Assembly (NCBI GenBank): GCA_021205755.1
Contig: JAJPWX010000072.1
Location: 1-34,863, forward strand
Origin: Lachnospiraceae bacterium
GTDB taxonomy: Bacteria > Bacillota > Clostridia > Lachnospirales > Lachnospiraceae
DNA: 34,863 nt
Direction of reading: 5' to 3'
Below, in pieces: positions 6,665 through 33,897 of this stretch. The position numbers and the translations under genes were made by a program. Each line of letters begins with the position of its first letter. Positions within the stretch are counted from its first letter, which is position 1. The notes under the pieces were generated by a model. The model did no database searches. It was given only the letters and a program-made list of their open reading frames with translations, and had not been told where the DNA came from.

Positions 6665-7561
6665 TCAATCAGAATAATGTTTTAGGGCATGTATGTACAC
6701 TTCTCCGATTGGACTGATTTTTATTCCTTTTTGCTTCACATAACCGATGCAGATTTTTTCTGACTCGACAAGCGGAATTGCTTTATAATCCTTTCCGTTC
6801 AGTTCTTCGCAGATAATACCGGAACAGAGTGTATATGCGTTCAGACCCACCATAAGATTCAGCAATGTAGCCCGATCACTTGCGTGAATCAGCCGTTCAT
6901 ATTCATATGTACTGTTCATCTCTTCCGCAAAGTAATAGGAATTGTTTTTTCCCTGGTCAAATGCCAGGCACGGGAAAGGCGCAAGCTCCTGCATGGAAAT
7001 GCAGTCTTTTTCCGCTAGGGGATGCCGATGCCAGAGGTAGACATATGTGTCACATTGAAATAATTCCACGAATTCAAGGCCATTTTCAGAAATTATCTTT
7101 GTCAGCGCCTTTTCATTAAATTCGCTGCGGTACAGAATTCCTATTTCGCTTTTCAGGTTCTTCACATTTTCAATTACCTCTGCTGTCGTTGTTTCATACA
7201 CAGCAAACTCATAGCAGTCAATTCCAGCCGTTTTTACGGTATCAATAAAGGCTTTTACCGCAAATGTATAATGCTGCATGGATACGCTGAATTTCTCTTT
7301 TGCGCGCTTCTCCACATAACGCTCATAAAGAAGGCCAAACTGCTCGGATACCCCTCTCGCATAGTTTAAAAACTCTTCGCCTTCCCCAGTCAGCAGGATT
7401 CCCCTGTTCGTGCGTACAAAAATATTGAAGCCAATTTCATTTTCCAATTCCTTTATTGCCCCGGAAAGGCTGGACTGGGAAATAAATAACTCTTTTGCAG
7501 CACCATTTATAGAACCGTGATCGGCAATCGCAAGGGCATATCGTAACTGTTGCAGAGTCAT
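6665..7561 (-). CDS. LysR-family transcriptional regulator
   Basis: A 298-residue LysR-type regulator. The N-terminal winged helix-turn-helix (about 1-60) shows LQQLRYALAIADHGSINGAA, SQSSLSGAIKELE and VRTNRGILLTGEG in the family order. The rest (about 90-295) is a periplasmic-binding-like effector domain whose ligand cannot be predicted. ATG 7561 is chosen because AGGAGGGG lies 9 nt upstream and the HTH then starts at residue 1-2; the frame extends 15 codons further without a better site. It lies downstream of the sulfate operon in the same orientation, separated by a 180-bp stretch holding a palindromic repeat. By position it is a candidate activator of the sulfur genes, since CysB, CysL and CmbR belong to this family, but no binding evidence is available. 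Confidence 0.88.
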   Translation of the reverse strand: MTLQQLRYALAIADHGSINGAAKELFISQSSLSGAIKELENEIGFNIFVRTNRGILLTGEGEEFLNYARGVSEQFGLLYERYVEKRAKEKFSVSMQHYTFAVKAFIDTVKTAGIDCYEFAVYETTTAEVIENVKNLKSEIGILYRSEFNEKALTKIISENGLEFVELFQCDTYVYLWHRHPLAEKDCISMQELAPFPCLAFDQGKNNSYYFAEEMNSTYEYERLIHASDRATLLNLMVGLNAYTLCSGIICEELNGKDYKAIPLVESEKICIGYVKQKGIKISPIGEVYIHALKHYSD

Positions 7562-7628
7562 CGCTGTCGTCCCCTCCTTACTACAGTCGTCAAATATAGT
7601 AAACAACGTAAGTCGTTTTACTTTGCGC

Positions 7629-7726: not shown

Positions 7727-7742
7727 TGTGCATCATTTAACT

Positions 7743-8156
7743 TCATTCCAACACCAGATTTTCCTTTTCCACTTCACCTTTTTCCACATGAAAAGAATTC
7801 AGAACCGGAGCTGTCTGATTCTCCAATGACAGGATCAGATAGCTCGCGCTGCTGTCAAAAGCCAGCCGTATGTCCTCCTGGGAAGGGCGTGACGGAGACT
7901 CCGGATGGGAATGCCAGTTTCCAAGCGGTTTCCATCCATTTTTGCGCATATCCCTGACCGCCGAAAGCTGTTCTTTGGAATTCAGTGAAAAATGCTCCCT
8001 GGAATGATCAATATTGGTCAGAAGATACACATTTTCAATATATTTTTCTCCCCCTTCGATTCTCCCGCCAATCAGGCCACAGGCCTCCTCCGGAAGCTGT
8101 GCGAACGCATGGGAAATCATCTTATCGTAATCTTCTCTTTTCAGATGAATCGTCAT
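7743..8156 (-). CDS. JAMM/Mov34 (MPN+) metalloprotease, HcyD/Mec+-like
   Basis: A 137-residue single-domain zinc isopeptidase-like protein. The catalytic Glu is in PEEACGLIGG (22-31), and the JAMM motif is HSHPESPSRPSQED, giving His82, His84, Ser92 and Asp95 in the H-x-H-x7-S-xx-D spacing. Bacterial members next to sulfur-carrier genes remove residues after the C-terminal Gly-Gly: Mec+ frees cysteine from CysO, and HcyD trims HcyS. The gene is last in the sulfate operon, 102 bp after the E1-like gene and two genes from a carrier that ends GGGC, its likely substrate. GGAG lies 7 nt before the ATG. Confidence 0.88.
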   Translation of the reverse strand: MTIHLKREDYDKMISHAFAQLPEEACGLIGGRIEGGEKYIENVYLLTNIDHSREHFSLNSKEQLSAVRDMRKNGWKPLGNWHSHPESPSRPSQEDIRLAFDSSASYLILSLENQTAPVLNSFHVEKGEVEKENLVLE

Positions 8157-8258
8157 ATTTTTTCTCCGTTTCTTCCTGCAAGCCTTTTCAAAACGTCATT
8201 ACACAGGCTGCCATTTATTTTTCTGTTATGACCTGTTCTGAAGTGCTGCCCGGATATC

Positions 8259-9140
8259 TCAGATACCCTCGCATTCTGTCTGTTCATAATCAATCAGTTC
8301 TGTGATCGTCGGATGTGCCCCGCAAACAGCACAGGAGCCGTCCGGTTTTGGAAGCCGTATTTTCCGGAACTCCATTTTGATTGCGTCAAAAGTCAGCAGG
8401 TAACCCGTCAACAGATCTTCAGCCCCCGTGATGTATTTGATCGCTTCCATCGCCTGAAGGCTGCCAATAACGCCGCCCATTGCTCCGATCACGCCCGCCT
8501 GTTTGCAGGTCGGAACCGCATCTTTGGGCGGCGGATTTTTAAATACACAGCGGTAACAGGGACCCTCCCCCGGCACGTAAGTCATCAGCTGTCCTTTAAA
8601 TCGAATGATTCCCGCGTGAGAAAATGGTTTTCTGCCCATCACACAGGCATCATTGATCAGAAATTTTGCCGGGAAATTATCAGTCCCATCAATAATGAAA
8701 TCATAGTCTCTTATCAGATCCATGATGTTTTCTGCGCTCACAAATGTGCGGTATGTATTTACCTGCACATCCGGATTCATCCGGTTCATCGTCTCTTTCG
8801 CGGACAAAACCTTCGCTTTTCCCAGATCCTCTGTCGAATGGATGATCTGTCTCTGAAGATTTGAGAGATCCACCTCGTCCGCATCTGCGATTCCGATTGT
8901 TCCGACTCCGGCAGCTGCCAGATACATGGCCGCAGGCGCCCCCAGGCCCCCGGCGCCAATGATCAGCACTTTCGAATTTAACAGTTTTTTCTGACCCTTT
9001 ACACCGATTTCTTTTAAAATGATATGTCTGGAATAACGCTCAAGCTGCTCATTTGACGCTGTCCAGCGCGAGACCGGAGCATCAGCCGGGCGCGAAGCAT
9101 TTTCGGCACTGTCGGTATTCGTATCCTTTTGTACCCCCAT
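8259..9140 (-). CDS. E1-like adenylyltransferase (ThiF/MoeB/HesA family), HcyF-like
   Basis: Activates the C-terminal glycine of a ubiquitin-like sulfur carrier by adenylation. The 293 residues show the nucleotide-binding loop GAGGLG (62-67), the DLSNLQRQ stretch (91-98), a DGTDNFPAK motif (151-159), the Zn-binding pairs CYRC (195-198) and CAVC (270-273), and a candidate catalytic Cys212 in PTCKQAGVIG. No rhodanese domain follows, unlike MoeB-R/MOCS3 proteins. The first 25 or so residues are an Asp/Ala/Ser-rich extension, probably disordered. Its ATG overlaps the carrier stop codon (TGATG), so translation is probably coupled and the carrier is the natural partner. ThiF or MoeB would be alternatives, but no thiamine or molybdopterin gene is nearby. 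Confidence 0.9.
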   Translation of the reverse strand: MGVQKDTNTDSAENASRPADAPVSRWTASNEQLERYSRHIILKEIGVKGQKKLLNSKVLIIGAGGLGAPAAMYLAAAGVGTIGIADADEVDLSNLQRQIIHSTEDLGKAKVLSAKETMNRMNPDVQVNTYRTFVSAENIMDLIRDYDFIIDGTDNFPAKFLINDACVMGRKPFSHAGIIRFKGQLMTYVPGEGPCYRCVFKNPPPKDAVPTCKQAGVIGAMGGVIGSLQAMEAIKYITGAEDLLTGYLLTFDAIKMEFRKIRLPKPDGSCAVCGAHPTITELIDYEQTECEGI

Positions 9141-9346
9141 CAGCAGCCACCTCCCATAAAATACAGGAATTCTACCACGTCGCCCTCCTTCAGCGCCGCA
9201 GTTTCAAAAGTGGCACGTTCCGCAAATTCCTCATTTACAGAAACGCTGACATAGTCTGGCATTTCCACATCCTCTGATCTGATCAATTCAGCAATCGTAA
9301 TTCCATCCTTTACTTCCTTTGTTGTACCTGCAACTGTTATCTTCAT
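9140..9346 (-). CDS. ThiS/MoaD-like sulfur carrier protein with C-terminal GGGC
   Basis: A 68-residue ubiquitin-fold sulfur carrier. The N-terminal MKITVAG strand, the central LIRSEDV and VNEEF segments, and the late GDVVEFLYFMGG match ThiS-type proteins. In ThiS and MoaD the chain ends at Gly-Gly and becomes a thiocarboxylate; here one more Gly and a Cys follow (Gly65-Gly67, Cys68) before TGA. That extension must be removed before adenylation, which fits the JAMM protease in the same operon. GAGGAGA lies 7 nt before the ATG. By context it resembles HcyS of Wolinella, which carries sulfide for homocysteine synthesis; a role in cysteine synthesis like CysO is the alternative. Confidence 0.88.
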   Translation of the reverse strand: MKITVAGTTKEVKDGITIAELIRSEDVEMPDYVSVSVNEEFAERATFETAALKEGDVVEFLYFMGGGC

Positions 9347-9389
9347 CTCAATCTCTCCTCTATATTTTTGATCAAAGCACAGCTTTTGC

Positions 9390-9719
9390 TTACAGATTCT
9401 CTCTCACCGCCATCTCCAGCACAAGCTTTGGCTGCACGCCGCCAAGCCGGCCGACTTCCTTTCCGTCCTTCAGGAAAAGAAACGTCGGCGCGGAAAGGAC
9501 ATGATACTTGGCAGCAAGCTCCGAATTCCATGCGACATTTACTTTTCCGACAAACACCTGGTCGCCAAATTCTTCTGTTAGTTCTTCCTCCAGCTCAGCC
9601 AGTACCGGCGCCATGCGTTTGCAGGGGACGCAGCTGTCCGAATAAAAGTCAATCAAGGACAGTCTGCCATTTTCCAATACTCTTTTTTGAAAACTTGTAC
9701 CATCAACTTTTTCTGCCAT
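9390..9719 (-). CDS. Thioredoxin-like protein with CVPC active site
   Basis: A 109-residue single-domain thioredoxin fold, cytoplasmic (no signal peptide). The active site is DSCVPCK with Cys30 and Cys33; normal thioredoxin has WCGPC, so both the Trp and the Gly are replaced. The cis-proline segment SAPTFLFLKDGKEVGRLGG is present at the usual distance. In this operon it may supply electrons for the APS/sulfite reduction steps or reduce a persulfide on the neighbouring TusA-like protein. The AGGAAGGGG site lies about 9 nt before the ATG, and the gene starts 16 bp after the TusA-like gene. Confidence 0.88.
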   Translation of the reverse strand: MAEKVDGTSFQKRVLENGRLSLIDFYSDSCVPCKRMAPVLAELEEELTEEFGDQVFVGKVNVAWNSELAAKYHVLSAPTFLFLKDGKEVGRLGGVQPKLVLEMAVRENL

Positions 9720-9735
9720 CGCGTTCTGCCCCTTC

Positions 9736-9978
9736 CTATTCGACTTTTCTCACGATCAACTCGAACGTGCCGTCCTTATTGTCGATCAGCTTCAGGACCT
9801 GATGTCCCTCTTCTTTTATGCTTCTCGGAACATTCTGAACCGTTTCTCCCCCATTCATATGGATTGAAAGGATCTGCCCATCCTCCAGTTCCTCCAACGC
9901 TACTTTTGCTTTCACAAACGTCACCGGGCAGACGACATCCGTGATATCTACTGACCCATCTACCTGAAATTCCGCCAT
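9736..9978 (-). CDS. TusA/YedF/SirA-family sulfurtransferase
   Basis: An 80-residue sulfur-relay protein. The family's catalytic cysteine is Cys17 in VDITDVVCPVTFVKAK, and the later residues form the expected beta-alpha fold ending in IVRKVE. The standard CPxP motif is changed to CPVT. TusA-type proteins pass a cysteine persulfide between partners; here the neighbours are a sulfite reductase, a thioredoxin and a carrier/E1 pair, so a role in handing sulfur to the carrier is plausible but inferred. A strong AAGGAGG lies 8 nt before ATG 9978. Confidence 0.88.
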   Translation of the reverse strand: MAEFQVDGSVDITDVVCPVTFVKAKVALEELEDGQILSIHMNGGETVQNVPRSIKEEGHQVLKLIDNKDGTFELIVRKVE

Positions 9979-9993
9979 TCCATTTTCCTCCTT

Positions 9994-10098
9994 CTATTCG
10001 GACTCCTGTTTCTGTGACTTTTGTATGTTCACAGTTCCCCTGTTTTTTGACTGATAAGCCAATCTGAAAACTAAGTTTTTCCCTTTCACGCTGCCCAT
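9994..10098 (-). CDS. Possible 34-residue ORF between sulfite reductase and TusA genes
   Basis: The 163-bp gap between the sulfite reductase and TusA-like genes is unusually long for this tight operon. It holds a 34-codon ORF (starting MGSVKGKN, ending QKQESE) with AGGAA 6 nt before the ATG, and its TAG stop sits just before the tusA ribosome binding site. The sequence is Lys/Gln/Ser rich and not recognised. It may be chance or a small translation-coupling ORF. Confidence 0.2.
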   Translation of the reverse strand: MGSVKGKNLVFRLAYQSKNRGTVNIQKSQKQESE

Positions 10099-10141
10099 AT
10101 ACCGTTCCTGCTGACAAAAAGTTCCGGCAACTGTACATGGT

Positions 10142-11017
10142 TCAGACAGGATTCGCTGCACCATCGTATGCTGTTTTCAGCACCTCATGAAACTTCTCTT
10201 TGCCGACTCGATCAATCGTGAACTTAAACCGCTCTCCGGCATTCGCGTTGTCTCCAAAAAACTGAATCGCCGCATCAGTGACGGCAAAAAGCTGCTCTTC
10301 GGTTGTAATAAGAGGCAGGGGCGATTCCCCTTTGCAAATACTGTTGCCGAACGTGCCGCCAAATGACAAAATGTATGCCGTTTCCGCGTCCCAGGCATCG
10401 GTCGGACAGGATTTTTCACATCTTCCGCAGTAATTGCATTTTTCGTAATCCACCGTAGCCTTTCCGTCCACCAGGGTAATCGCGTGGGAGCGGCAGGCCT
10501 GCTCACAGACTCCGCATCCGATACAGTCTTCCTGACGCCATTTTACATTCAGCGCCCCTTTGATCCCCACATCATTTTCCTCTGCTTTCAGGCAGTTGTT
10601 CTGGCAGCCTGTGACTCCGAATTTAAATTTATGGGGAAGCTCTCTGCCGAAGTAGCGCTGATCCAGCTTTTTCGCAATATCCTGACAGTCAATATTGCCG
10701 CTCGGACAGACCGTATTTCCCTGGCAGGCCGTCACAGTACGGACGCGCGGCCCGCAGACGCCGGGCCTGCAGCCGCCATCCGCAAGCTCCGCTTTCACAG
10801 AATCAATGTCTTTTAATTTGATAAATGGAATTTCTACCCCCTGGCGGGAAGTCAGATGTACATAACCCTCTCCATATTTTTCCGCCACCTCGGCAATCTT
10901 CGCGAGATTCTCCGCCGTAAGCGTACCGCCCACCACCTGCAGACGCAAAGAAAAATGATCCTTTTGCTTCTGACGCATAAAACCGCCTTTTTTCAGAGTC
11001 GCATAATCAACTGCCAT
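10142..11017 (-). CDS. Siroheme sulfite reductase with ferredoxin insert (AsrC-like)
   Basis: Predicted to reduce sulfite to sulfide. The 291 residues show an N-terminal half-domain (about 15-80), then the siroheme/[4Fe-4S] ligands C98-x5-C104 and C138-x3-C142 (TGCQNNC), followed by the ENDVGIKG stretch of the AsrC/dissimilatory family. Two ferredoxin clusters are inserted at Cys165/168/171/175 and Cys194/197/200/204. It is somewhat shorter than AsrC (about 337) and no AsrA or AsrB partner is near, so electrons probably arrive from ferredoxin or from the thioredoxin two genes on. It follows the APS-forming and APS-reducing genes, which places it at the next chemical step. AGGAG lies 7 nt before the ATG. 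Confidence 0.88.
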   Translation of the reverse strand: MAVDYATLKKGGFMRQKQKDHFSLRLQVVGGTLTAENLAKIAEVAEKYGEGYVHLTSRQGVEIPFIKLKDIDSVKAELADGGCRPGVCGPRVRTVTACQGNTVCPSGNIDCQDIAKKLDQRYFGRELPHKFKFGVTGCQNNCLKAEENDVGIKGALNVKWRQEDCIGCGVCEQACRSHAITLVDGKATVDYEKCNYCGRCEKSCPTDAWDAETAYILSFGGTFGNSICKGESPLPLITTEEQLFAVTDAAIQFFGDNANAGERFKFTIDRVGKEKFHEVLKTAYDGAANPV

Positions 11018-11106
11018 ACTTCTTCTCCTTTCTTTGCCAGGAACCTATGAGCATTCCCACAGACCATCCCATCCCTATGTTTTTTATCAAAGCCCTATGC
11101 CTTCTA

Positions 11107-12819
11107 TTACAGGAACCCGCCATCCTGTGTGCCCTCTGACACCAGCGATGTTTCCTGAAGAATCGCCCTCGCAATTTCACTTGCAGAGCAAATATCCACA
11201 TTCTTCCATCCGGAATAGACGGATGAATTCTCCGCAATCGGAACTTCCGGATTTTCCACCAAAAGTACGATTAAACCCGCTTCCGTCAAAAGCTCCAGAA
11301 TCCGGCCGATGTCCTCACCCGGCTCCGGCTGATAGAGGAACGTTCTTCTTCCCTCCGTGTACAGCCTGTACTCCACCTCCTGAATGAGCTTTAACGTAAT
11401 CCCATCCGTTTCCGGCGATAATTTAAAGACAGCCGCCGTGTGTCCGTTCAGAATTGCCCGCTTCATGGCTGTAACCGTCTTATTTTCGTGCAAATCCTGC
11501 GTCGTGGAAGTGATAACTCCGCAGGCAGAAGTCATATTGGTAATGCGGTCAATCAGAATTAGTTCACCCAGAGTCTTATGTTTGCGGAACAGATCCAGCA
11601 CAACACTGTCGGCAAATGTGATTTCCACCGAACCGATTTCGTTTTTCCGCAAATATCCCGTCTGGCGCCTTTCTCCTGTATTTACATCCGTATTGTAGCG
11701 AATCTGGCGCACCTGTCCCGGAACCAGCCGGGTTCCGATTTTTATGAAAAAAGCTTTTCCATTTATCAAAGCCTCATCATCCATCCACAGGATATCCGCA
11801 GTAACGCCGGACGCAATGGATAAATGCTCTCCTGCGGTCAGTACGCAGCCGCGGGAAACATCCACTTCCCGGTCAAGCTGGATTGTCACAGGCTGTCCGC
11901 GAAACGCTTCTTTGACTTCAGCATCTCCTGCCAGAATGTGCTTCACATGCGCTTTTTCCCGGCTCGGCAGCGCTGTGATTTCCTCTCCAGTCCGAATGAC
12001 GCCTTCCTCAATCTGCCCCTGAAAACCGCGAAATTCGTGATTGGGCCGGCAGACACGCTGCACCGGCATATAAAACGGATTCTCAATCTCCTCGTTACGC
12101 CCCTTCTCTCTGTTTGCAGGTCTGGCGGTATCGGTAATGTCGGTCTGATAGGATTTGCTCTCCCAGGCGTCCGCATCCTCCGCGACGTCTACCTGCTCCA
12201 GATACGTCAAAAGAGCAGGACCGTCATACCAGCCGGTATGGACAGACTTTACGGTCACATTATCTCCTTCCGTTGCAGAAACCGGAATGATCCGGATATT
12301 GAAAAGTCCAAGCTCCGTTTTTAACTTCTCAATCTGCGTTTCAATCTCCCGAAAGCGTTCTTCGCTGTAATCCACCAGATCCATCTTGTTTACCGCAAAA
12401 ACAAAATAACGGATTCCCATCAGTGCGCAGATGCGGGCATGGCGTCTGGTCTGCACGAGAACGCCCTGCGTGGCATCCACCAGAATCACCGCAAGATCCG
12501 CAAAGGAAGCTCCTACCGCCATATTGCGTGTGTACTCCTCATGCCCTGGCGTATCCGCCACAATAAAGCTGCGGTGTTCGGTTGTAAAATAGCGGTAGGC
12601 CACATCAATCGTGATTCCCTGCTCCCGCTCCGCCATCAGTCCATCCAGCAAAAGAGAATAGTCAATTGCCCCGCCTCTGGAGCCGACCTTAGAATCCAGC
12701 TCCAGCGCGCGCTCCTGATCCGCATAAATCAGCTTGGAGTCGTATAAAATATGTCCGATCAGGGTAGATTTTCCGTCATCCACACTTCCGCAGGTAATAA
12801 ATTTCAGCAGTCCCTTCAT
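11107..12819 (-). CDS. cysN: Sulfate adenylyltransferase subunit 1 (GTPase) with degenerate C-terminal kinase-like domain
   Basis: GTPase subunit of ATP sulfurylase, which drives APS formation with CysD. It has the P-loop GSVDDGKS (11-18), ADTPGHEEY (G3) and NKMD (G4), followed by the EF-Tu-like beta-barrels. At 570 residues it is about 95 longer than E. coli CysN (475) and shorter than CysNC fusions (about 640). The extra part (about 457-570) resembles the APS kinase fold around RLYTEGRRTFLY and LLTEAGLIVLLVENP, but the kinase P-loop is replaced by KLSPETDGIT. It is therefore probably a dead CysC domain, in keeping with direct APS reduction by AprAB. ATG 12819 is set by AGGGAGGGG upstream and starts 1 nt after the CysD stop. 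Confidence 0.9.
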   Translation of the reverse strand: MKGLLKFITCGSVDDGKSTLIGHILYDSKLIYADQERALELDSKVGSRGGAIDYSLLLDGLMAEREQGITIDVAYRYFTTEHRSFIVADTPGHEEYTRNMAVGASFADLAVILVDATQGVLVQTRRHARICALMGIRYFVFAVNKMDLVDYSEERFREIETQIEKLKTELGLFNIRIIPVSATEGDNVTVKSVHTGWYDGPALLTYLEQVDVAEDADAWESKSYQTDITDTARPANREKGRNEEIENPFYMPVQRVCRPNHEFRGFQGQIEEGVIRTGEEITALPSREKAHVKHILAGDAEVKEAFRGQPVTIQLDREVDVSRGCVLTAGEHLSIASGVTADILWMDDEALINGKAFFIKIGTRLVPGQVRQIRYNTDVNTGERRQTGYLRKNEIGSVEITFADSVVLDLFRKHKTLGELILIDRITNMTSACGVITSTTQDLHENKTVTAMKRAILNGHTAAVFKLSPETDGITLKLIQEVEYRLYTEGRRTFLYQPEPGEDIGRILELLTEAGLIVLLVENPEVPIAENSSVYSGWKNVDICSASEIARAILQETSLVSEGTQDGGFL

Positions 12820-12820
12820 A

Positions 12821-13720
12821 TTAAAAATACCCCTCCCTTTTTCTGCGCTCCATGCTGCCGCTTTCCTCATGGTCGATGACGCGGCTGGTCCGCTCCGATT
12901 CCACCGCGCTCAAAGTTTCTTCAATAATCGCATCCAGTGTATCCGCGTCGGATTCGACCCCGCCCGTCAGCGGATAGCAGCCAAGAGTGCGGAAGCGGAT
13001 CTTCTTTTTCACAATCTCTTCTCCCGGACGCAGCTTCAGCCGGTCGTCATCTACCATAATGATATTGCCATCCCGATAAACCACGGGACGTTCAGCCGCA
13101 AAATAAAGAGGAACAATCTCTATGTTTTCCTGGCGGATGTACTGCCAGATATCCTTCTCTGTCCAGTTAGACAAGGGGAATACCCTCATGCTCTCCCCCT
13201 TGTGGATCTTTGTATTATAAAGCTTCCACATTTCCGGTCGCTGGTTTTTCGGATCCCATGCCTGCTCGGCATTGCGGAAAGAGAAAATCCGTTCCTTGGC
13301 CCGTGATTTTTCCTCGTCCCTGCGCCCGCCGCCAAATGCCGCGGTGAAACCATACTTTTGAAGCGCCTGTTTTAATGCCTGCGTCTTCATGATATCCGTA
13401 TAAGCCGAACCATGGTCGAATGGATTGATTCCCTGGCGGACGCCCTCTTCGTTTGTGTACACCAGCATTTCAATTCCTTTTTCTTTCGCGATCCGATCGC
13501 GGAACTCGATCATCTCCCGGAATTTCCATGTCGTATCAATATGAAGAAACGGAAATGGAGGTTTTTCCGGATAAAATGCTTTCATAGCCAAATGAAGCAT
13601 CACGGAACTGTCCTTTCCGATCGAATAAAGCATGACCGGTTTTTCACATTCCGCGGCTACTTCCCGCATGATGTAAATCGCCTCTGCCTCCAGTTCATCC
13701 AAATGCGATAAATTGTACAT
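12821..13720 (-). CDS. cysD: Sulfate adenylyltransferase subunit 2
   Basis: Catalytic subunit of ATP sulfurylase, forming APS from ATP and sulfate. The PP-loop SIGKDSS (33-39) opens the PAPS-reductase-like fold; [27 protein letters not shown] and the [15 protein letters not shown] segment are all typical. The C-terminal [15 protein letters not shown] is the conserved CysD tail. Length 299 matches E. coli (302). The frame is open further upstream, but ATG 13720 has AGGAGA 8 nt before it and starts [17 protein letters not shown] as in homologues. It lies 22 bp after AprB and 1 bp before CysN. Confidence 0.95.
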
Positions 13721-13742
13721 GGTATTTGTCTCCTTACTGATC

Positions 13743-14057
13743 TCAATATCGGTTCGCCTCTCTGGAATCCACAAGGATTTCCTGACAATTCTGGTGCGCA
13801 TCCGTAACCTGCCAACACAGCACGCTTTTTTCTTTTTTTACCGAAAGCACAGCGCCGCGGCCGCCGATATCCGCTCCGAGATAATAATGAATCGCCCCAA
13901 AAGGGCATTCCTTTAAACAGGAAGCGCAGCCCCAGCAGTCGCGTTCCTGTCGGATAAAAGCCCTGCCATCCACACCCACTCCGAGCAGATTTCCCGGACA
14001 GGCTTCCACACATCTGCCGCAGCCCACACATTTTCCCGCATCAATCCGGATACTCAT
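13743..14057 (-). CDS. aprB: APS reductase beta subunit-like ferredoxin (short AprB)
   Basis: Electron-transfer partner of the AprA-like flavoprotein. The 104 residues carry two [4Fe-4S] motifs, Cys10/13/16/20 ([12 protein letters not shown]) and Cys41/44/47/51 ([12 protein letters not shown]), then a [15 protein letters not shown] stretch as in AprB. Dissimilatory AprB is about 150 residues with a C-terminal tail that wraps around AprA; most of that tail is missing here, in line with an assimilatory-type enzyme. The start codon overlaps the AprA stop (ATGA), implying coupled translation and a fixed ratio. Confidence 0.87.
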
Positions 14058-15826
14058 GGTTTTTCTCTCCCATCCCCTGTTTTGATATCCCGGTAAATGA
14101 TTTCAATCTGTCCGTTCCGATACCTTGAATTTACATATTTTTCAAACCGCGGATCTGTCCTGGGATAGTCTGTATTCTCCGCAAATCCATGCCAGCGTGT
14201 CTCTTTTCTTGCCGCCATATGGGCGAGAAGCGTCCGGCACACCACCAGACGTTCCCGAAGCTCATAGATACGCAGCAGATCATACATGGTTTCCGCCCGA
14301 AGAGAGGGAATCTCCTCCTGCAGCAGCCGGATTCTGCGGTCGGCCTCCTTTAATCCAGTTTCACTGTATCGGTAATCTGTGCGGATGCCGCCTGCATACT
14401 GATCCATAATTGCCTGCATGGCTTCCTCCGCCTGATCGATATCAATTACAGTACGAGATTTTGAAAGATATGCTTCATATTCCTGCTTTTTCTTCGGACT
14501 ATCCTCCTCGAATCTGTCCGAATCATCCTTTCTGCCCGCACCAGCATATGCGTACCCACTCTTCTGCTCGTGAGAACCCTTCTGCGTCTTCGTATGCTCC
14601 CCCACCGCGCAATTCCCGAAAACGCCATCTGACAGGTAGCGCATCATCGCCTCCGCCGCAATCTCCGCTTCAGCCAGCGCGCCGGTGACATATTTCTGCG
14701 GGCAGCCTCCCGCCACGTCCCCCGCAGCAAAAAGCCCCTGAAGCGTCGTCCGGCGATTTTCATCAACCCAGTATCCGCTTGCAGTGTGACCTCCCACAAT
14801 ATATGGCTCCGTCCCTTCGATCTCCACATTCTTCCCTGACGGTCCGCATTCGTCCTCCAGCCACTTTAAAGTCTGCGATGGAGCCATATTCAGATACGCT
14901 TTGTATAAATCCGTCTCCTGTTCTTTGGAAATTCCTGCCGTTTTCAGGAAGCAGGGGCCGCGCCCCTCGCGGTTTTCCATAACCGTTCCATATAGCCGCC
15001 CGGACGTCGTACGGTCATAGCGGTTTTCGTACTCCTCCCCTTTGGCATTCACCTGACTGGCCAAAATTCCCTGGGCGATCGTCCCGACCGGGGCAATCGT
15101 GTCCTTGCATCGCAGAGCGATGAAGCGCATCTCAAAGGTCGTCATCTCCGCCCCGGCCAGGATACCCATTGCATAGCCGGCCCCGGTATTAAAAGGAGGA
15201 TACCAGAGTTTGTGTTTCGAAAAGCCGGGATTATTAGGGCGATAGAGACCTGCCGCCCCGCCGGTCGCTATCAGTACCGCTTTCGCGTGAATCTCGTAAA
15301 ACACAGGAGCATTCACATCAAATCCATATGCTCCCCGCACTGTGCCATCTTCCAGAAAATAATCTGTAATATTGACATGATTCAAAACCGCCACGTTTGG
15401 CTGAGAAGATGCTGCGTTCGCCAACAGCGGTTTGATGTTTTCTCCGTTAATCTTAATATTGCGCCATCCACGTGAGGCATAGCTGCCGTCCTCATTTTTC
15501 AAAATGACCAGCCCAAGCCGCTCCAGTTCTTCCGTCACCTCATTGAGGCGCCCGGACATGGACAAAAGCAGATCCTCCCGCGCAATCCCCTGGGCGTCCC
15601 TTTTGGCGTAATCTACGTAATCCTGCAGCGTGTGCCCGTCCGTAATATAGGCATTCAGCGCATTTACCCCTGCCGCAAGACAGCCGCTGCGCCGGATATT
15701 CGCTTTTTCCACGATCAAAACATGATAATCGGATCTCTGTCCAAGGATGTAAGCGGCATAGCACCCCGCCGTTCCACCGCCGATGATGAGGATGTCTGTA
15801 GAAAGCACTTTTGTTTCAAGGGTCAT
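14054..15826 (-). CDS. aprA: Adenylylsulfate reductase alpha subunit-like flavoprotein
   Basis: FAD enzyme of the fumarate reductase/AprA family, expected to reduce APS to sulfite and AMP. The FAD loop IIGGGTAGC is at 14-22, the second flavin motif is LFAAGDVAGG (365-374), and GGHTASGYWVD (345-355) and the TTFEMRFIALR stretch (229-239) follow AprA. A 40-residue hydrophilic segment (about 404-446, rich in Lys, Asp and Gly) interrupts the region before the C-terminal helical domain and looks like a loop insertion. Direct overlap with CysA upstream and AprB downstream (both ATGA) places it firmly in the sulfate operon. Because ABC uptake and CysDN are in the same unit, the role is most likely assimilatory rather than respiratory. 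Fumarate reductase is unlikely given the partners. Confidence 0.88.
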   Translation of the reverse strand: MTLETKVLSTDILIIGGGTAGCYAAYILGQRSDYHVLIVEKANIRRSGCLAAGVNALNAYITDGHTLQDYVDYAKRDAQGIAREDLLLSMSGRLNEVTEELERLGLVILKNEDGSYASRGWRNIKINGENIKPLLANAASSQPNVAVLNHVNITDYFLEDGTVRGAYGFDVNAPVFYEIHAKAVLIATGGAAGLYRPNNPGFSKHKLWYPPFNTGAGYAMGILAGAEMTTFEMRFIALRCKDTIAPVGTIAQGILASQVNAKGEEYENRYDRTTSGRLYGTVMENREGRGPCFLKTAGISKEQETDLYKAYLNMAPSQTLKWLEDECGPSGKNVEIEGTEPYIVGGHTASGYWVDENRRTTLQGLFAAGDVAGGCPQKYVTGALAEAEIAAEAMMRYLSDGVFGNCAVGEHTKTQKGSHEQKSGYAYAGAGRKDDSDRFEEDSPKKKQEYEAYLSKSRTVIDIDQAEEAMQAIMDQYAGGIRTDYRYSETGLKEADRRIRLLQEEIPSLRAETMYDLLRIYELRERLVVCRTLLAHMAARKETRWHGFAENTDYPRTDPRFEKYVNSRYRNGQIEIIYRDIKTGDGREKP

Positions 15827-16926
15827 ATGATCACCGTCTCTTCTGTGTTGATCAGCGAATTCCCAACGATCTGTACCTTCTGATCTTCGCTAAACACATA
15901 GGCGCGGTAGATAAATACCCGGACTTTTTCCCCTTCCTGCACCGGCGCTTCTTCAATTTTCCGCATTCCCTGCACAAGAATCCCGTGAATCCTCACCCAC
16001 AGGTCAATCTCGCGTCCGCGGAAGAGCACGCGCTCGACGATCCCTTCCTCTGTGGAAATTTCATAACGGAGTGTCTCCCCTTCTTTGGAAATACTCACAT
16101 TCTCCGGCCGGATGACAGCGTGATATTCCGGACCGAGCTGCCCGAATCCTCTGAAGCTTCCGATGTTGTCAATCCGCGTCGGATGTCCCATGAATTCCGC
16201 GACGAAAGCGGTATCCGGATTGCGGTAAATCTCCATCGGTGAGCCAATCTGCTCAATGCGCCCCGCATTGGTAATGATGATCTCATCAGCCACCTCGATC
16301 GCCTCGTCCTGATCATGAGTAACAAAGATGCTGGTCACCCCGACCTTATTAATCATTTCCCGCAGCCAGGCGCGAAGCTCCTGTCTCACCTTCGCGTCGA
16401 TCGCGGCAAACGGCTCATCTAAGAGCAGCAGCTCCGGATTGGGCGCAAGTGCCCTTGCAAAAGCCACCCGCTGTCTCTGTCCGCCGGAAAGTTGGTTTGG
16501 ATAGCGTTTTTCCAGTCCTTCCAGCCCGATCAGGGAGATCAGCTCATTTACCCGCTCCCGGATGTCTTTTGTTTTCCATTTATTCACCTTTAATCCGAAG
16601 GCGATATTGTCATACACCGTCTTATAGCGGAACAGCGCATAATTCTGAAAGACAAACCCCACGCCGCGTTTACTTGCAGGGACATCGCTGACATTCTTCC
16701 CACTGATCAGAATCTCTCCGGAATCCGCCGTCTCCAGACCGGCGATGATGCGCAATATCGTGGTTTTCCCGCTTCCACTCGGGCCAAGCAGGGCAACCAG
16801 CTGCCCTTTTTTCACACCAAAACTCACATTCCGTGAGGCATGGCAATCCTGAAAGGCCTTGTTGATTCCTCTCAGTTCCAGATAGTTCTCGTTTGCTGCT
16901 TCTGTTTTGTTGTTTCGCTGTTCCAT
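15823..16926 (-). CDS. cysA: Sulfate/thiosulfate ABC transporter ATP-binding protein
   Basis: Cytoplasmic ATPase of the sulfate importer. Walker A GPSGSGKT is at 48-55, followed by the LSGGQRQRVAFARAL signature, LLLLDEPFAAID Walker B and the VTHDQDEA switch. The C-terminal third is a TOBE-type regulatory domain (about 240-350) containing VIRPENVSIS. The 367-residue length matches CysA. It is 18 bp after CysW and overlaps AprA by 4 bp (ATGA), so transport and reduction are translationally linked. AGGGAGA precedes the ATG. Confidence 0.95.
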   Translation of the reverse strand: MEQRNNKTEAANENYLELRGINKAFQDCHASRNVSFGVKKGQLVALLGPSGSGKTTILRIIAGLETADSGEILISGKNVSDVPASKRGVGFVFQNYALFRYKTVYDNIAFGLKVNKWKTKDIRERVNELISLIGLEGLEKRYPNQLSGGQRQRVAFARALAPNPELLLLDEPFAAIDAKVRQELRAWLREMINKVGVTSIFVTHDQDEAIEVADEIIITNAGRIEQIGSPMEIYRNPDTAFVAEFMGHPTRIDNIGSFRGFGQLGPEYHAVIRPENVSISKEGETLRYEISTEEGIVERVLFRGREIDLWVRIHGILVQGMRKIEEAPVQEGEKVRVFIYRAYVFSEDQKVQIVGNSLINTEETVII

Positions 16927-16944
16927 TTCGTTCTCCCTGAGATT

Positions 16945-17772
16945 CTATATCGTCTGATTCTCCTGCTTTCCCCTGCGTTCCAGCACGCTGCGGAGGATCA
17001 GGATCAGCACCGCCATCAGCACCAGAATTGCCGACACCGCAAACGCTCCTGTGAAATCATATCCCTGGTACAAAAGTTCGATATAAAGCGGCATGGTATT
17101 GGTTTTCCCTCGCAAATGTCCGGACAATACCGATACCGCGCCGAACTCTCCCATCGCTCTGGCGCTGCAGAGGACAATTCCATACAGAAGCGACCATTTG
17201 ATATGCGGAAACGTGATTTCACGAAAAATCCGAAATCCCCCGGCGCCCATCAGCGCTGCCGCTTCCTCTTCATCCGTCCCCTTCGCAGTCAGCACCGGAA
17301 TAATCTCCCTCGATACAAATGGGAACGTGACAAAAATCGTTGCCAGCACAATTCCAGGGACTGCAAAAATAATCTGGATACCGGCTTCTTTTAGATACGG
17401 ATATAATGCACTCTGCCGCCCGAAGGTCAGCACATAGATCAATCCGGCGATGATTGGCGACACCGTAAGCGGCAGATCAATCAGCGTTGAAATAATTTTC
17501 TTTCCTCTGAACTGGAAACGGGTGATCAGCCAGGCTGCGAAAATACCAAAAATGGTATTAAAAATCACGGTAAGTACAGTCACTTCAATTGTCAGCAAAA
17601 TTGCCTTTACCGCATACTCATCCGACACAGCCTCCCAGAATGCCCCGACTCCTTCCCGGAAAGCGGTCACAAGGACATAGATCAACGGCAACACCAGCAT
17701 GACGATCAGAAAGACCGCGCAGATTCCGATGAGCAGCCATTTTACAGATCCCGAGTTTTTCTTTGTGTTCAT
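16945..17772 (-). CDS. cysW: Sulfate ABC transporter permease
   Basis: Integral membrane permease of the sulfate importer. The 275 residues have six hydrophobic segments; the binding-protein-dependent permease motif EEEAAALMGAGGFRIFREITFP lies around 190-210. LCSARAMGEFGAVSVLSG (about 217-234) is the hallmark of the CysW/ModB group. AGGAGG lies 9 nt before ATG 17772, and the gene starts 12 bp after CysT. Confidence 0.95.
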   Translation of the reverse strand: MNTKKNSGSVKWLLIGICAVFLIVMLVLPLIYVLVTAFREGVGAFWEAVSDEYAVKAILLTIEVTVLTVIFNTIFGIFAAWLITRFQFRGKKIISTLIDLPLTVSPIIAGLIYVLTFGRQSALYPYLKEAGIQIIFAVPGIVLATIFVTFPFVSREIIPVLTAKGTDEEEAAALMGAGGFRIFREITFPHIKWSLLYGIVLCSARAMGEFGAVSVLSGHLRGKTNTMPLYIELLYQGYDFTGAFAVSAILVLMAVLILILRSVLERRGKQENQTI

Positions 17773-17784
17773 AAAAATCGCCTC

Positions 17785-18627
17785 CTATGCGATTCCGCTC
17801 ACGATACGTGATGCACGGCTCTGTACCACTGCATTAATAAAAAGGATTGCAAAAGCCGCCAGCAGCATCACCAAAGCGATCGATGTCGCACTGGCATAGT
17901 CGTATTCCTGCAGCTCCGACATAATCATCAGAGGGGCAATTTCGGTCTTATACGGCGTATTTCCCGCTATAAACACGACACTGCCGTACTCTCCGAGTCC
18001 CCTCGCGAATGAGGTAGTAAAGCCTGCGATCAATGCCGGAAAAATCTCCGGCAGGATCACATGTCTTAATGTCTGTCCACTGCTTGCGCCTAAAATATTG
18101 GCCGCCTCTTCAAACTGCGGATCAAGGCTTTCCAGTACCGGCTGTACAGACCGGACGACAAAAGGAATTCCTATAAACACCAGGGCTACCGTAATACCGG
18201 TCGTTGTATATGCGATCTTTATTCCAAACCGGTTAAAGAAACTCCCTACCCAGCCATTTGTAGTAGTAAGGTGGGTAAGAGAAATACCCGCGACCGCCGT
18301 CGGCAGTGCAAATGGAAGTTCAATAATCCCATTCATGATTTCTTTTCCCGGAAACTCATAGCGTACCAGTACCCAGGCCAGGATCGTACCCATCACCGCA
18401 TCAATCACCGCTGCGACAAAAGCAGTCCGGAAGCTGACTGCGTAGCTGGATAATACCCTGGGTCTGGTCACGGTACTGATGAAATCCGCAAACGAGAGCT
18501 GTGCGGAATAAATAACCAGCGTACAAAGCGGAATGACCACGATCAGCCCCAGCATAGCCGTCACGATTCCAAGAGAAAGGCCAAACCCCGGAATCACCCG
18601 TTTCTTTTTTCTCTTCTTTTCTTTCAA
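17785..18627 (-). CDS. cysT: Sulfate ABC transporter permease, TTG start
   Basis: Partner permease of CysW, 280 residues, with six membrane segments. The EAA-type motif FEEAANILGASSGQTLRHVILPEIFPAL and the SFARGLGEYGSVVFIAGN stretch define the CysT/CysU group. The open frame reaches ATG 18672, two bases after the stop of the binding-protein gene, but TTG 18627 has AGGTGG at an ideal 7-nt spacing. It gives a 280-residue protein like E. coli CysU (277), so it is preferred; the ATG would add a 15-residue tail. Confidence 0.9.
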   Translation of the reverse strand: MKEKKRKKKRVIPGFGLSLGIVTAMLGLIVVIPLCTLVIYSAQLSFADFISTVTRPRVLSSYAVSFRTAFVAAVIDAVMGTILAWVLVRYEFPGKEIMNGIIELPFALPTAVAGISLTHLTTTNGWVGSFFNRFGIKIAYTTTGITVALVFIGIPFVVRSVQPVLESLDPQFEEAANILGASSGQTLRHVILPEIFPALIAGFTTSFARGLGEYGSVVFIAGNTPYKTEIAPLMIMSELQEYDYASATSIALVMLLAAFAILFINAVVQSRASRIVSGIA

Positions 18628-18674
18628 ATGAGTTCCACCTTTCCTTGTTGGCAGCCCGTTCTTCACAAACATTC

Positions 18675-19739
18675 TTACTCTTCATAGATACTGTCGAAAA
18701 TAGCTCCGTCCACAAAGTGTGTCTCTGTCGCCTCTGTCCATCCGCCAAAATGGCTGATGTCCGTCAGTTCAACATTCGTATTAATCCACTTGCCATCCTC
18801 CGGAATCTCGGTGATCGTATTGCTCTCATCCTCCGTCGCGTATTCCGCAAGAATCTCTTCATTTGATGGGCGATAATAATTTTCTGCCTCCAGACGCTGA
18901 GCCTCATCCGAATACAGATAGCTCAGATACTCAGTCGCGACCTCCCTTGTGCCTCTCTCATCCACGACCTCATCTACGATCGCTACAGTTGGCTGGCAGA
19001 GGATGGATACCGACGGAACCACAATCTCATACTCACCCGGATACTCTTCCAGTGCCAGAAATGCTTCATTTTCCCAGGCAATCAGCACATCTCCCTGTCC
19101 GTTCTCTGTGAATGTCGTCGTCGCGCCGCGCGCACCGGAATCAAGTACCAGAACATTCTCATACAGTGTCTTAATGCTCTCCTGAATCTCCTCCTCACTC
19201 TGCCCCTGCAGCTCGAAATAGTACCAGGCCGCCAGATAATTCCAGCGCGCGCCACCGGAAGTCTTCGGATTCGGCGTAATCACACCCACACCCTCATTCA
19301 GCAGGTCATCCCAGTCCTGAATATCCTTCGGATTACCGGAGCGTACCAAAAAGACAATCGTCGAAGTATAAGGTGAGCTGTCCAAATCAAATTCTGAGGT
19401 GTACCCCTCCTCAATCAGCCCCGCATCTACAAGTGTATCCACATCACCCTCCAGCGCCAATGTCACTACATCCGCCTCAAGGCCGTTCGCCACCTCAAGC
19501 GCCTGCTTACCGGAGCCGCCGTGAGACTGTACGATCTCGACCTCCTCGCCGGTCAGTTCCAGCCAGTGTGCCTGAAACAGCTCATTGTAAGCTGCGTAAA
19601 GCTCTCTGGTCGGGTCATACGAAACGTTTGTGATCTCCACACTTGCGGCAGACACCGGTACGCTGCCAACACCCAGCGCGAGTGCGCATAAGCTTGCTGC
19701 CGAGCCGCTTAAAAATTCTCTTCTGGTTATTCTTGTCAT
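18675..19739 (-). CDS. Sulfate ABC transporter substrate-binding protein with Tat-like signal
   Basis: Extracellular sulfate (or thiosulfate) receptor of the CysATW importer, Sbp/CysP family, 354 residues. The mature part shows SYDPTRELYAAYN, the family's anion-site stretch SHGGSGKQA, VVTLALEGDVD, NPKTSGGARWNYLAAW and the GQGDVLIAWENEA segment. The N-terminus is MTRITRREFLSG with a moderately hydrophobic stretch and a VSAAS cleavage region (about 30-32), so it looks like a twin-arginine (Tat) signal rather than a lipoprotein signal. AGGAGG lies 9 nt before ATG 19739. It is the first structural gene of the operon, behind a roughly 190-nt leader with short ORFs. Confidence 0.93.
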   Translation of the reverse strand: MTRITRREFLSGSAASLCALALGVGSVPVSAASVEITNVSYDPTRELYAAYNELFQAHWLELTGEEVEIVQSHGGSGKQALEVANGLEADVVTLALEGDVDTLVDAGLIEEGYTSEFDLDSSPYTSTIVFLVRSGNPKDIQDWDDLLNEGVGVITPNPKTSGGARWNYLAAWYYFELQGQSEEEIQESIKTLYENVLVLDSGARGATTTFTENGQGDVLIAWENEAFLALEEYPGEYEIVVPSVSILCQPTVAIVDEVVDERGTREVATEYLSYLYSDEAQRLEAENYYRPSNEEILAEYATEDESNTITEIPEDGKWINTNVELTDISHFGGWTEATETHFVDGAIFDSIYEE

Positions 19740-19900: not shown

Positions 19901-19917
19901 CCTACTAAATTAATAGG
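19901..19917 (-). promoter_or_regulatory. Imperfect palindrome just downstream of the sulfate-operon promoter
   Basis: A 17-bp imperfect palindrome CCTATTAATTTAGTAGG (minus strand), at roughly +13 to +29 from the predicted start. A 17-bp relative, CCTATCGAATAAATAGG, sits at about the same place in the metY promoter (33790-33806). Such a site could bind a repressor; Rrf2/CymR-type proteins bind palindromes of this general form, but the assignment is a guess. Confidence 0.4.
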
Positions 19918-19936: not shown

Positions 19937-20006
19937 ATCATACAACAAAAAAAGGAATCCGTCAATTTCCGGATTCCGATAACTGGTTATCTGTTTTACA
20001 GATAAC
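19937..20006 (-). promoter_or_regulatory. Promoter A of the sulfate operon with upstream sulfur box
   Basis: On the minus strand, TTGACG (19960-19965), a 17-bp spacer and TATGAT (19937-19942) form the core. Exactly 8 bp before the -35 lies TTCCGATAACTGGTTATC (plus-strand reading, 19974-19991), with a third half-site CAGATAAC at 19999-20006. The same arrangement precedes the metY-like gene at 20034-21308 and the metY gene at 32428-33711. Confidence 0.7.
19947..19977 (-). terminator. Hairpin after the MetY-like gene, overlapping promoter A
   Basis: GGAATCCG/CGGATTCC (19954-19961, 19970-19977) forms an 8-bp stem followed on the minus strand by seven T residues (19947-19953), 57 bp after the stop of the gene ending at 20034. 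The same bases contain the -35 element and the edge of the sulfur box, so the segment may end one transcript and start the next. Confidence 0.7.
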
Positions 20007-20033: not shown

Positions 20034-21308
20034 TCATTTTACCACCATTGTTATCGCGGTCGTAAAATCCTCGATCAAATCCTTCGCATCCTCAATCCCT
20101 ACGCTGACACGGATCAGGTCGTCATAGACTCCCGCTGCCGCTCTTTGCTCTTCCGATGCGTGTACATAAATCGTTGACGCCGGATGGATGACCAGGGTAC
20201 GGACATCGCCAATATTGGTGGCCTTTTTCGCATATTTCAGGCTGTCCATCATCTGGTAGGCCTTCTCCTTCGAGCCGACGCGTATGGTCAGGATCGCACC
20301 GCCCCCCTTTCCACCAAACTGGCTTTCCGCCAGTGCATGATATGGGCTTTCATTCAACGTTGGATAATTCACATACAGACAACCACACTTGCCCGGTGCA
20401 CTCTGCTTATCCTGTTCATGAGCCAGACGCTCTATCGCCTCGGCAAGCGCCTGCGCATTCTCACAGATTCGCTGCATCCGAAGCCCCAGAGTTTCCAGAC
20501 CGACAACATTCAAAAAAGCGTTCATTGGAGCAAGACAGGCTCCCATATTTCTCCAGATTCCGTTGCGCAGCTTTGCGGTGTAAGCAAATGGTCCATAGGA
20601 ACGATACTCCGTCATGCCGGGATAACGTTCTGTATTCCATTTAAAGCGCCCACCATCTACAATAATTCCACTAATGGAATTTCCGCCGCCATTTATATAT
20701 TTTGAGGAAGAATGTACAACAATATCTGCACCATATTCAAGCGGACGGATCAGGTAAGGAGTTGCAGTAGTCGCATCCACAATCAGCGGGATTCCCCTCG
20801 CATGTGCAAGCTCTGCCACACTGCGGACATCCATCACATCCAACGCTGGATTGCCAATCAGTTCGCCAAAAATAACCTTTGTCCTCTCATTAATAAGCGG
20901 TTCTATTTCCTGAACCGTCACATGCTCAACATATCGTGTTGTAATCCCAAAGCTTTCCAGATCTCCAAACAGATCGATGGTCCCGCCAAACAGTCCGCTT
21001 CCCGCAATCACCTCATCCCCCGCCTGAAGGATGTTCAAAAGCGACAGCGTAACAGCAGCCATCCCGGAAGAACAGGCTACAGCGCCCACTCCACCTTCCA
21101 GTTCACAGATTCGTCTTTCAAACGCATCCACCGTAGGATTTCCGATCCTGGTATACGCGAAGCCCGGTGCCCGGTTCTGGAATACCTTTTCCAATGCCTC
21201 CGAGCTTTCATAGCTAAAGGCGCTTACCTGTGAAATCGGGGGCAGGGTAGCGCCATTCTGATATTCTTTTGCCTCTTTTCCATGCAGCAGTTTCGTTGAA
21301 AATTCCAT
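20034..21308 (-). CDS. O-acetylhomoserine sulfhydrylase-like PLP enzyme (divergent MetY)
   Basis: A 424-residue member of the Cys/Met-metabolism PLP family closest in length and layout to MetY, which makes homocysteine from O-acetylhomoserine and a sulfur donor. The PLP lysine is Lys203 in HSSSKYING, and the YTRIGNPT stretch (52-59) is canonical. It departs from the standard enzyme in two places: the usual YGGT becomes FGGT (Phe107), replacing the Tyr that stacks on PLP, and the KFIGGHG stretch becomes KYINGGG. It lies directly upstream of the sulfate operon and has its own sulfur box, so it could be the acceptor enzyme for the operon's carrier-bound sulfide. GGAGG lies 8 nt before ATG 21308. 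Confidence 0.85.
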   Translation of the reverse strand: MEFSTKLLHGKEAKEYQNGATLPPISQVSAFSYESSEALEKVFQNRAPGFAYTRIGNPTVDAFERRICELEGGVGAVACSSGMAAVTLSLLNILQAGDEVIAGSGLFGGTIDLFGDLESFGITTRYVEHVTVQEIEPLINERTKVIFGELIGNPALDVMDVRSVAELAHARGIPLIVDATTATPYLIRPLEYGADIVVHSSSKYINGGGNSISGIIVDGGRFKWNTERYPGMTEYRSYGPFAYTAKLRNGIWRNMGACLAPMNAFLNVVGLETLGLRMQRICENAQALAEAIERLAHEQDKQSAPGKCGCLYVNYPTLNESPYHALAESQFGGKGGGAILTIRVGSKEKAYQMMDSLKYAKKATNIGDVRTLVIHPASTIYVHASEEQRAAAGVYDDLIRVSVGIEDAKDLIEDFTTAITMVVK

Positions 21309-21385: not shown

Positions 21386-21454
21386 CTTATAACAGATCAC
21401 AGCCGTTCGTCAAAGTCCTTTTTCCGATAGCCAGCTATCGGAAATTCAGATAGC
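21386..21454 (-). promoter_or_regulatory. Promoter B of the MetY-like gene with sulfur box
   Basis: TTGACG (21408-21413), a 16-bp spacer and TATAAG (21386-21391) on the minus strand, 78 bp before the start codon. A perfect 22-bp palindrome at 21422-21443 (arms TTCCGATAGC and GCTATCGGAA around CA) lies 8 bp before the -35. A third half-site CAGATAGC is at 21447-21454, the same 25-bp offset as in promoters A and C. Confidence 0.7.
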
Positions 21455-33711: not shown

Positions 33712-33783
33712 GATAATTAATCTCCTTTTCTGGTGCGCCTGCACCTTTACTGTTTAGCACCTGCATCCTTAATATCCTTTTTC

Positions 33784-33812
33784 ACATTACCTATTTATTC
33801 GATAGGTAATGT
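33784..33812 (-). promoter_or_regulatory. Perfect 11-bp inverted repeat in the metY 5' region
   Basis: ACATTACCTAT/ATAGGTAATGT (33784-33794, 33802-33812) with a 7-nt spacer, at about +9 to +37 of the predicted transcript. It can act as an operator or as an mRNA hairpin. Its core resembles the palindrome at 19901-19917. Confidence 0.6.
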
Positions 33813-33827
33813 ATGTTTATGTCAATT

Positions 33828-33897
33828 ATAATACAGCCAGATCCGGTTTTCGTCAAATTCAGGATTCCGATAACTGGTTATCAGTTTTTCCTATAGC
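33828..33897 (-). promoter_or_regulatory. Promoter C of metY with sulfur box
   Basis: TTGACG (33851-33856), a 17-bp spacer and TATTAT (33828-33833) on the minus strand. TTCCGATAACTGGTTATC (plus-strand reading, 33865-33882) lies 8 bp before the -35, and a third half-site CCTATAGC is at 33890-33897, 25 bp from the start of the first. It sits between two divergent genes. Confidence 0.7.

Follow-up and report, generated by a model that had tools for sequence, protein, structure and literature searches.

A conserved box in front of sulfur gene promoters of a Lachnospiraceae genome, very probably the operator of a LysR-type regulator subfamily

The handling of sulfide and cysteine by Lachnospiraceae matters for gut ecology. 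Regulators of the LysR type usually recognise a T-N11-A dyad near -65 and make a second contact nearer the -35 element; for the CmbR/CysR proteins, Kovaleva and Gelfand reportedly described in 2007 the arrangement TGATA-N9-TATCA-N2-4-TGATA. Here we analyse a stretch of 34,863 nucleotides from Lachnospiraceae bacterium (the window; contig JAJPWX010000072.1 of assembly GCA_021205755.1, forward strand), in which a box of three half-sites precedes the promoters of three sulfur transcription units. Among described systems, CmhR/MtaR/MetR of streptococci is a LysR-type methionine activator with the mutation-tested operator TATAGTTTSAAACTATA; CmhR activates metQ and other met genes (PMC5359408). CmbR/CysR of Lactococcus and streptococci controls a sulfur regulon too. 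According to PMC5131005, the centre of the Lactococcus lactis CmbR box lies 46-53 bp before the start and a second box stands further upstream, two boxes at places comparable to those described below, and CmbR of Streptococcus pneumoniae represses cysteine genes from GYGATAAAAAWWAYTTATMAC.

The window is the complete contig C11 of a 4.02-Mb draft genome (G000) that is 99.86% complete. It carries the following boxes and promoters, the boxes being supported by sequence and genus conservation:

19978..20006, minus strand: putative activator box of the sulfate operon, GATAAC-TG-GTTATC-N9-GATAAC
19937..19965, minus strand: sulfate-operon promoter, TTGACG (19960-19965), 17 bp, TATGAT (19937-19942), start predicted
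21426..21454, minus strand: putative activator box of the MetY-like gene, GATAGC-CA-GCTATC-N9-GATAGC
21386..21413, minus strand: promoter of the MetY-like gene, TTGACG (21408-21413), 16 bp, TATAAG (21386-21391), a sequence reading
33869..33897, minus strand: putative activator box of metY, GATAAC-TG-GTTATC-N9-TATAGC
33828..33856, minus strand: metY promoter, TTGACG (33851-33856), 17 bp, TATTAT (33828-33833), start predicted

In the direction of transcription the boxes read GTTATCTGTAAAACAGATAACCAGTTATC, GCTATCTGAATTTCCGATAGCTGGCTATC and GCTATAGGAAAAACTGATAACCAGTTATC, and each is followed by TTGACG after exactly 12 bp; their shared half-site form is GATARC-N2-GYTATC-N9-KATARC. An earlier reading made from the letters of the window (the sequence-only reading) had described these sites as a promoter module, and its geometry was recovered in every detail: the 8-mer CNKATARC begins 25 bp past the first base of TTCC, at all three sites exactly 8 bp separate TTGACG from TTCC (12 bp from GATARC), and the spacers between -35 and -10 elements measure 17, 16 and 17 bp. 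A generic promoter scan recovered the promoters at 19937-19965 and 33828-33856. The sulfate box reads, on the minus strand, GTTATC-N9-GATAAC (T-N11-A) and then GTTATC closest to the -35 element; its TC-N9-GA dyad is centred at about -66 of the predicted start and the third half-site at about -50, as in the usual LysR layout. Judged from the letters, the geometry fits LysR activators.

Random scattering of the motif over the genome had been named as the outcome that would speak against such a module, and the genome-wide distribution was of the opposite kind. The composite GYTATM-N9-KATARC-N2-GYTATM-N12-TTGAC occurs at four places in the draft genome, all of them perfect, with no further place at up to three mismatches and none for the reversed control. 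The fourth copy (G000:C19:2778-2823) lies on another contig before a metQ-N-I operon, whose MetQ (154 bits) and MetN (366 bits) products stay below the curated NCBIfam cut-offs. Its half-sites are of the TATA type (class B, reading TATAA-N7-TTATA in this genome), as opposed to the GATA type (class A). Within the window, an 18-mer allowed up to three mismatches matched six times (three near-palindromic places, each read on either strand), where 0.27 matches were expected. The 14-mer GATARCYRGYTATC has three exact copies in the whole draft genome, each of them inside the window.

Conservation was examined in 47 genomes of the same genus. A pattern covering both classes was found, at up to one mismatch, at 73 places in 22 genomes (reversed control, 9), of which 72 were examined (G311:C18 was left out). 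TTGAC follows at exactly 12 bp at 58 of the 72 sites, in 16 genomes, these being 43 class-A and 15 class-B sites; the compared promoters all come from related genomes, so that such counts are not independent. The box just upstream of the -35 element is therefore kept at fixed spacing before orthologous sulfur genes of related genomes, as proposed. All 15 class-B sites precede metQ. The class-A sites precede genes for CysP (9), MetY (10), MetY-like proteins (4), sulfite reductase (1) and MetC-like proteins (2), the remainder standing before genes for parts of polar amino acid ABC transporters (8), genes for other proteins (4) or no gene that was recognised (5). Only CysP, MetY, MetY-like, sulfite reductase, MetC-like and MetQ genes were counted as sulfur genes here; the OppA, SBP3, PFL-like, DUF2318, TcyA and TcyB references were drawn from the same loci and excluded from this count, 'Tcy' being a label assigned in this work to proteins with polar amino acid transporters as best NCBIfam matches. 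The sulfate box stands at the same place before cysP in eight genomes (G304, G305, G306, G310, G313, G314, G315 and G318), the MetY-like box before the orthologue in G314, G315 and G318 and, with no recognised orthologue, in G317, and the metY box before MetY in nine further genomes. The box is real and conserved, and in all likelihood functional.

At family level, 299 genomes (nearly one per genus) were compared. Of the 114 genomes that had a strong match to one LysR subfamily (E<=1e-130), 76 carried the 21-mer GYTATAR-N7-YTATARC, as did 33 of the 185 others (Fisher p=1.5e-17, a test that ignores kinship); the reversed 21-mer went the other way (26/114 vs 61/185, p=0.07). We take this association, uncorrected for relatedness as it is, as the strongest evidence that the subfamily would bind the motif. 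The 21-mer was located within 300 bp behind the LysR gene at 17 of 79 testable loci (reversed pattern, 0); at least 10 such sites lie in the 299 family genomes, a count resting on 75 of 187 places, and most of 21 aligned sites behind LysR genes show the core TATAG-N7-CTATA. Among 80 LysR loci, kept from at least 586 places encoding a relative in named genomes, MetQ-like proteins were encoded in 24, MetY-like proteins in 21 and CysK-like proteins in 17.

The sequence-only reading had not recognised the motif as a described operator; in its family-wide form the motif does have a precedent. The core of that form equals that of the mutation-tested CmhR/MtaR site, and the kind of system is therefore known, the likeness being one of operator and LysR family. 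Further, an Enterococcus raffinosus LysR gene located beside metEF-patB and divergent from metEF encodes a protein 45% identical to LysR2 (see below), and the intergenic space carries AATAACTAGTTATAGCCAATAACTATAAC, with the same three-half-site order. The GATAAC half-sites are a variant of it, accompanied by a second operator-like layer. The window sites do not contain the CmhR/MtaR core: two show TATC-N9-GATA and the third TATAG-N7-CTGATA. Unlike that core, the class-A half-sites of the window read GATAAC, and the regulon here takes in sulfate assimilation. The third half-site and the fixed 12 bp to TTGAC are observations from the present genomes, streptococcal promoters lying outside the comparison. 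Membership in the CmbR/CysR group was rejected, as the letters of the window sites do not fit GYGATAAAAAWWAYTTATMAC of S. pneumoniae. In the openly available literature searched, no description was found of the GATAAC half-site, of a sulfate-operon target or of a wide clostridial subfamily, nor, in openly available papers, of Lachnospiraceae sulfur regulators; most subscription papers were outside this search.

Could the box be read by a regulator of another family, with the LysR link arising only from sulfur neighbourhoods that both share? As a sequence, GATAAC-N2-GTTATC is an ordinary palindrome too, and the genome encodes other regulators, Rrf2 proteins among them. Against this stand an association that spans about 298 genera, sites placed directly behind LysR genes, the T-N11-A geometry near -66 and a family-wide core identical to a mutation-tested LysR operator, which make such a regulator very improbable. 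With high probability the box serves as operator for a clostridial subfamily of LysR-type sulfur regulators, represented here by LysR1 and LysR2.

LysR1 is encoded in the window (6668..7561, minus strand) as the final gene of the sulfate gene row. The protein scores 69.9 bits with HTH_1 (cut-off 26.6) and 28.9 bits with LysR_substrate (cut-off 28), and its predicted model shows a full-length LysR fold (mean pLDDT 85.3). A fold search with this model returned many LysR proteins at similar Z, singling out neither CysB nor MetR. Identity with CysB of enterobacteria was rejected (NCBIfam NF009326, 45.9 bits, cut-off 436). An NCBIfam search with a 50-residue piece gave no match. A search of plasmids for a named CmbR relative was unproductive: a Streptococcus suis match lies beside glycogen genes, a Roseburia plasmid match lacks a sulfur neighbour, and a Priestia match stands beside a LysE-type transporter, with a GATATAG-N7-CTATATC palindrome after the gene. 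The second member of the subfamily found in the genome, LysR2 (G000:C2:36511-37413), is 57% identical to LysR1. In a tree, LysR1 groups with the proteins of loci L179 and L222 and LysR2 with Roseburia and Coprococcus sequences; because the tree separates them, the two are old paralogues or one was acquired.

The sequence-only reading had proposed a LysR-type operator with LysR1 as the local candidate. Subfamily and geometry agree with the first part, whereas LysR1 is not the best candidate alone, because boxes and LysR2 occur together in 16/16 genomes (the 16 genomes with the 58 sites are exactly those carrying LysR2) and because no LysR1 was found, at E<=1e-30 in draft genomes, in seven LysR2 genomes, six of which keep class-A boxes; five of these six are drafts of 98-100% completeness. 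LysR1 as a necessary reader was accordingly rejected. That the class-A boxes are read by LysR1 alone, LysR2 being confined to the metQ (class B) site, is unlikely. LysR1 does end the sulfate gene row, it was found in eight genomes (a fragment in a ninth), 9/9 with class-A boxes, and class B is closer than class A to the family-wide site; the persistence of class-A boxes in genomes with no LysR1 found speaks against this division of labour, as do the nearest relatives of LysR1 outside the genus, since L179 has TATA-type sites and none were seen at L222.

From the observed sequence, spacing, conservation and co-occurrence we infer the following course of events. A tetramer of the regulator would hold the divergent GTTATC-N9-GATAAC (T-N11-A, about -66 of the predicted start), its second dimer touching the third half-site at about -50, 12 bp from the -35 element. 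Under sulfur limitation, a small inducer (O-acetylserine or homocysteine, by analogy) may cause the regulator to recruit RNA polymerase, so that sulfate uptake and reduction, two MetY-type enzymes and, elsewhere in the genome, metQNI would be switched on. Across the genus, the reader accompanying the boxes would be LysR2, and LysR1, if cotranscribed at the end of the sulfate row, would reinforce the row. The opposite sign, a repressor operator as reported for pneumococcal CmbR (PMC5131005), appears quite improbable: the box lies upstream of the -35 element at one fixed distance in the 58 conserved sites, and the CmhR site with the family-wide core is an activating one.

Most class-A promoters would also be under the control of a second protein, most likely Rrf2/CymR-like, acting as a repressor at a palindrome just past the start. 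The sequence-only reading had not mentioned this operator-like element, which follows two of the three promoters:

19901..19917, strand not assigned: CCTA-N9-TAGG palindrome at about +13 to +29 relative to the predicted sulfate start, candidate repressor operator
33790..33806, strand not assigned: CCTA-N9-TAGG within a 12-bp inverted repeat (33784-33812), at about +15 to +31 relative to the predicted start of metY, candidate operator for a repressor

The palindrome occurs at 33 of 43 class-A promoters (23 perfect), 59-69 bp past the box (about +13 to +35), and at none of the 15 class-B promoters. This count is composed of 32 sites plus the cysP site of the window, which was taken separately and left out of the spacing control (n=42). 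In that control, covering bases 50-90 past the class-A box, N9 gave 22 perfect places and 32 at up to one mismatch; N7, N8, N10-N12 and the reversed pattern gave 0, and N6 gave 8 at one mismatch. In the 80 LysR loci N9 was found at 17 places and other spacings from 3 to 15 at 0-7; several of the N9 places lie between a promoter and cysK, an SGNH hydrolase gene or the lysR gene itself. In G153, a genome of another genus, the palindrome overlaps the -35 element. The form CCTAY-N7-RTAGG has five places in the own genome, one over a tRNA gene, one before a gene whose product bears a Tat-like signal (by eye) and three before sulfur-type genes, namely the sulfate operon, metY and a gene 81% identical to a tcyA-like reference. 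The operator of Rrf2 repressors (CymR, IscR, HypR/SifR), TGTAA-N9-TTACA (PMC9218516), has the same N9 spacing and different half-site letters. Three Rrf2 genes over the Pfam cut-off are present in the genome, one of them beside a cysteine-desulfurase-like gene (by eye). With moderate confidence, we regard CCTA-N9-TAGG as a putative Rrf2-type repressor site. We give an even chance to the wider proposal that an undescribed two-operator switch runs Lachnospiraceae sulfur genes, in which the LysR box 12 bp from the -35 element is combined with a repressor box after the start, the sulfate operon and metY standing under both and metQ and the MetY-like gene under LysR only; within the genus, part of the regulon would have exchanged the LysR half-site TATAAC for GATAAC, with two LysR paralogues coexisting. 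Such a case would be a natural example of an operator half-site that changes while the regulator is retained, and the motif, taken with its fixed spacing and with the LysR subfamily, defines a regulon open to scanning and direct testing.

A separate element, a terminator-like hairpin (GGAATCC...GGATTCC followed by T7; 19954..19977, minus strand), overlaps the -35 element of the sulfate promoter and may end transcription of the gene upstream; the sequence-only reading had passed over it. Together with the 12-bp inverted repeat at metY it would favour the view that RNA hairpins, as terminators or leader structures, and not DNA operators account for the palindromes. Yet an inverted repeat matching GGAAT...ATTCC is found at only 13 of the 58 related promoters, mostly of the cysP type, no Rfam family reaches its cut-off within the window, and the LysR-type box lies outside the predicted transcript because it is upstream of the predicted -35 element. 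A hairpin formed by the whole box was rejected on the first two grounds, and the RNA view as a whole is very improbable.

Several observations weigh against a LysR-read activator box coupled to a repressor site. LysR2 shares no contig with any of the four boxes in its own genome, the 16/16 match between LysR2 and boxes represents one clade and not 16 independent events, and the TTGAC spacing is absent at 14 of the 72 genus sites, 10 of these in genomes without LysR2. The exact 21-mer is missing in 38 of the 114 strong-LysR genomes and present in 33 of the 185 others. The class-A half-sites (GATAAC) differ from the family-wide form, and either LysR1 or LysR2 may be the paralogue that reads them. 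When the family genomes were searched strictly for class A, with up to one mismatch allowed, 25 places were found in 17 genomes (reversed control, 5); a recognised sulfur or LysR neighbour was present in five of these genomes (G000, G203, G180, G245 and G153), with the box of G180 pointing away from metY; in the other 12 none was recognised, and these were taken as chance. As S. pneumoniae CmbR is a repressor (PMC5131005), activation is not automatic. The generic promoter scan missed the promoter at 21408, because its -10 element TATAAG is without the final T demanded by the scan, and its counts of promoter-like sites were close to the counts obtained with shuffled sequence (5 vs 3.1; 4 vs 2.2). 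Finally, the reversed form of CCTA-N9-TAGG outnumbers the motif (29 vs 17 in the 80 loci and, on each strand of this genome, 40 vs 5), and therefore only position and spacing, not number, argue for its function.

The genes behind the window boxes are:

7743..19739, minus strand: sulfate gene row, comprising cysP, cysT, cysW, cysA, an aprA-like gene, a small ferredoxin-like ORF (by eye), cysD, cysN and genes for a sulfite-reductase-type protein, a moeB/thiF-like product and a JAB-domain protein
6668..7561, minus strand: LysR1, LysR-type regulator
20034..21308, minus strand: MetY-like protein of the O-acetylhomoserine/O-acetylserine sulfhydrylase family (TIGR01326, 413.9 bits, below the cut-off of 495.1)
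32428..33744, minus strand: metY, Cys/Met metabolism PLP-dependent enzyme (name from the sequence-only reading; Pfam supports the family)

In two related genomes with a shortened gene row a sulfate-type promoter persists, before sulfite reductase in G311 (L117 3939-3967) and with no recognised gene after it in G307 (L109 7693-7721). LysR-type boxes were also seen before SGNH-hydrolase-like genes (L047 1501-1529 and L097 1501-1529, in G153 and G321), the box in G153 adjoining a LysR-subfamily gene. At G000:C60:65160-65176 (L262) the tcyA-like gene has TTGACG, TATGAT and CCTA-N9-TAGG, and no LysR box was found there. Within the sulfate gene row of the window, the JAB-domain and MoeB/ThiF-like genes (7743-9140) may point to a carrier-protein route to cysteine. 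The gap between the JAB-domain gene and LysR1 (7562-7742, about 180 bp) holds an inverted repeat that by eye is GC-rich, and the corresponding gap in G318 measures 36 bp.
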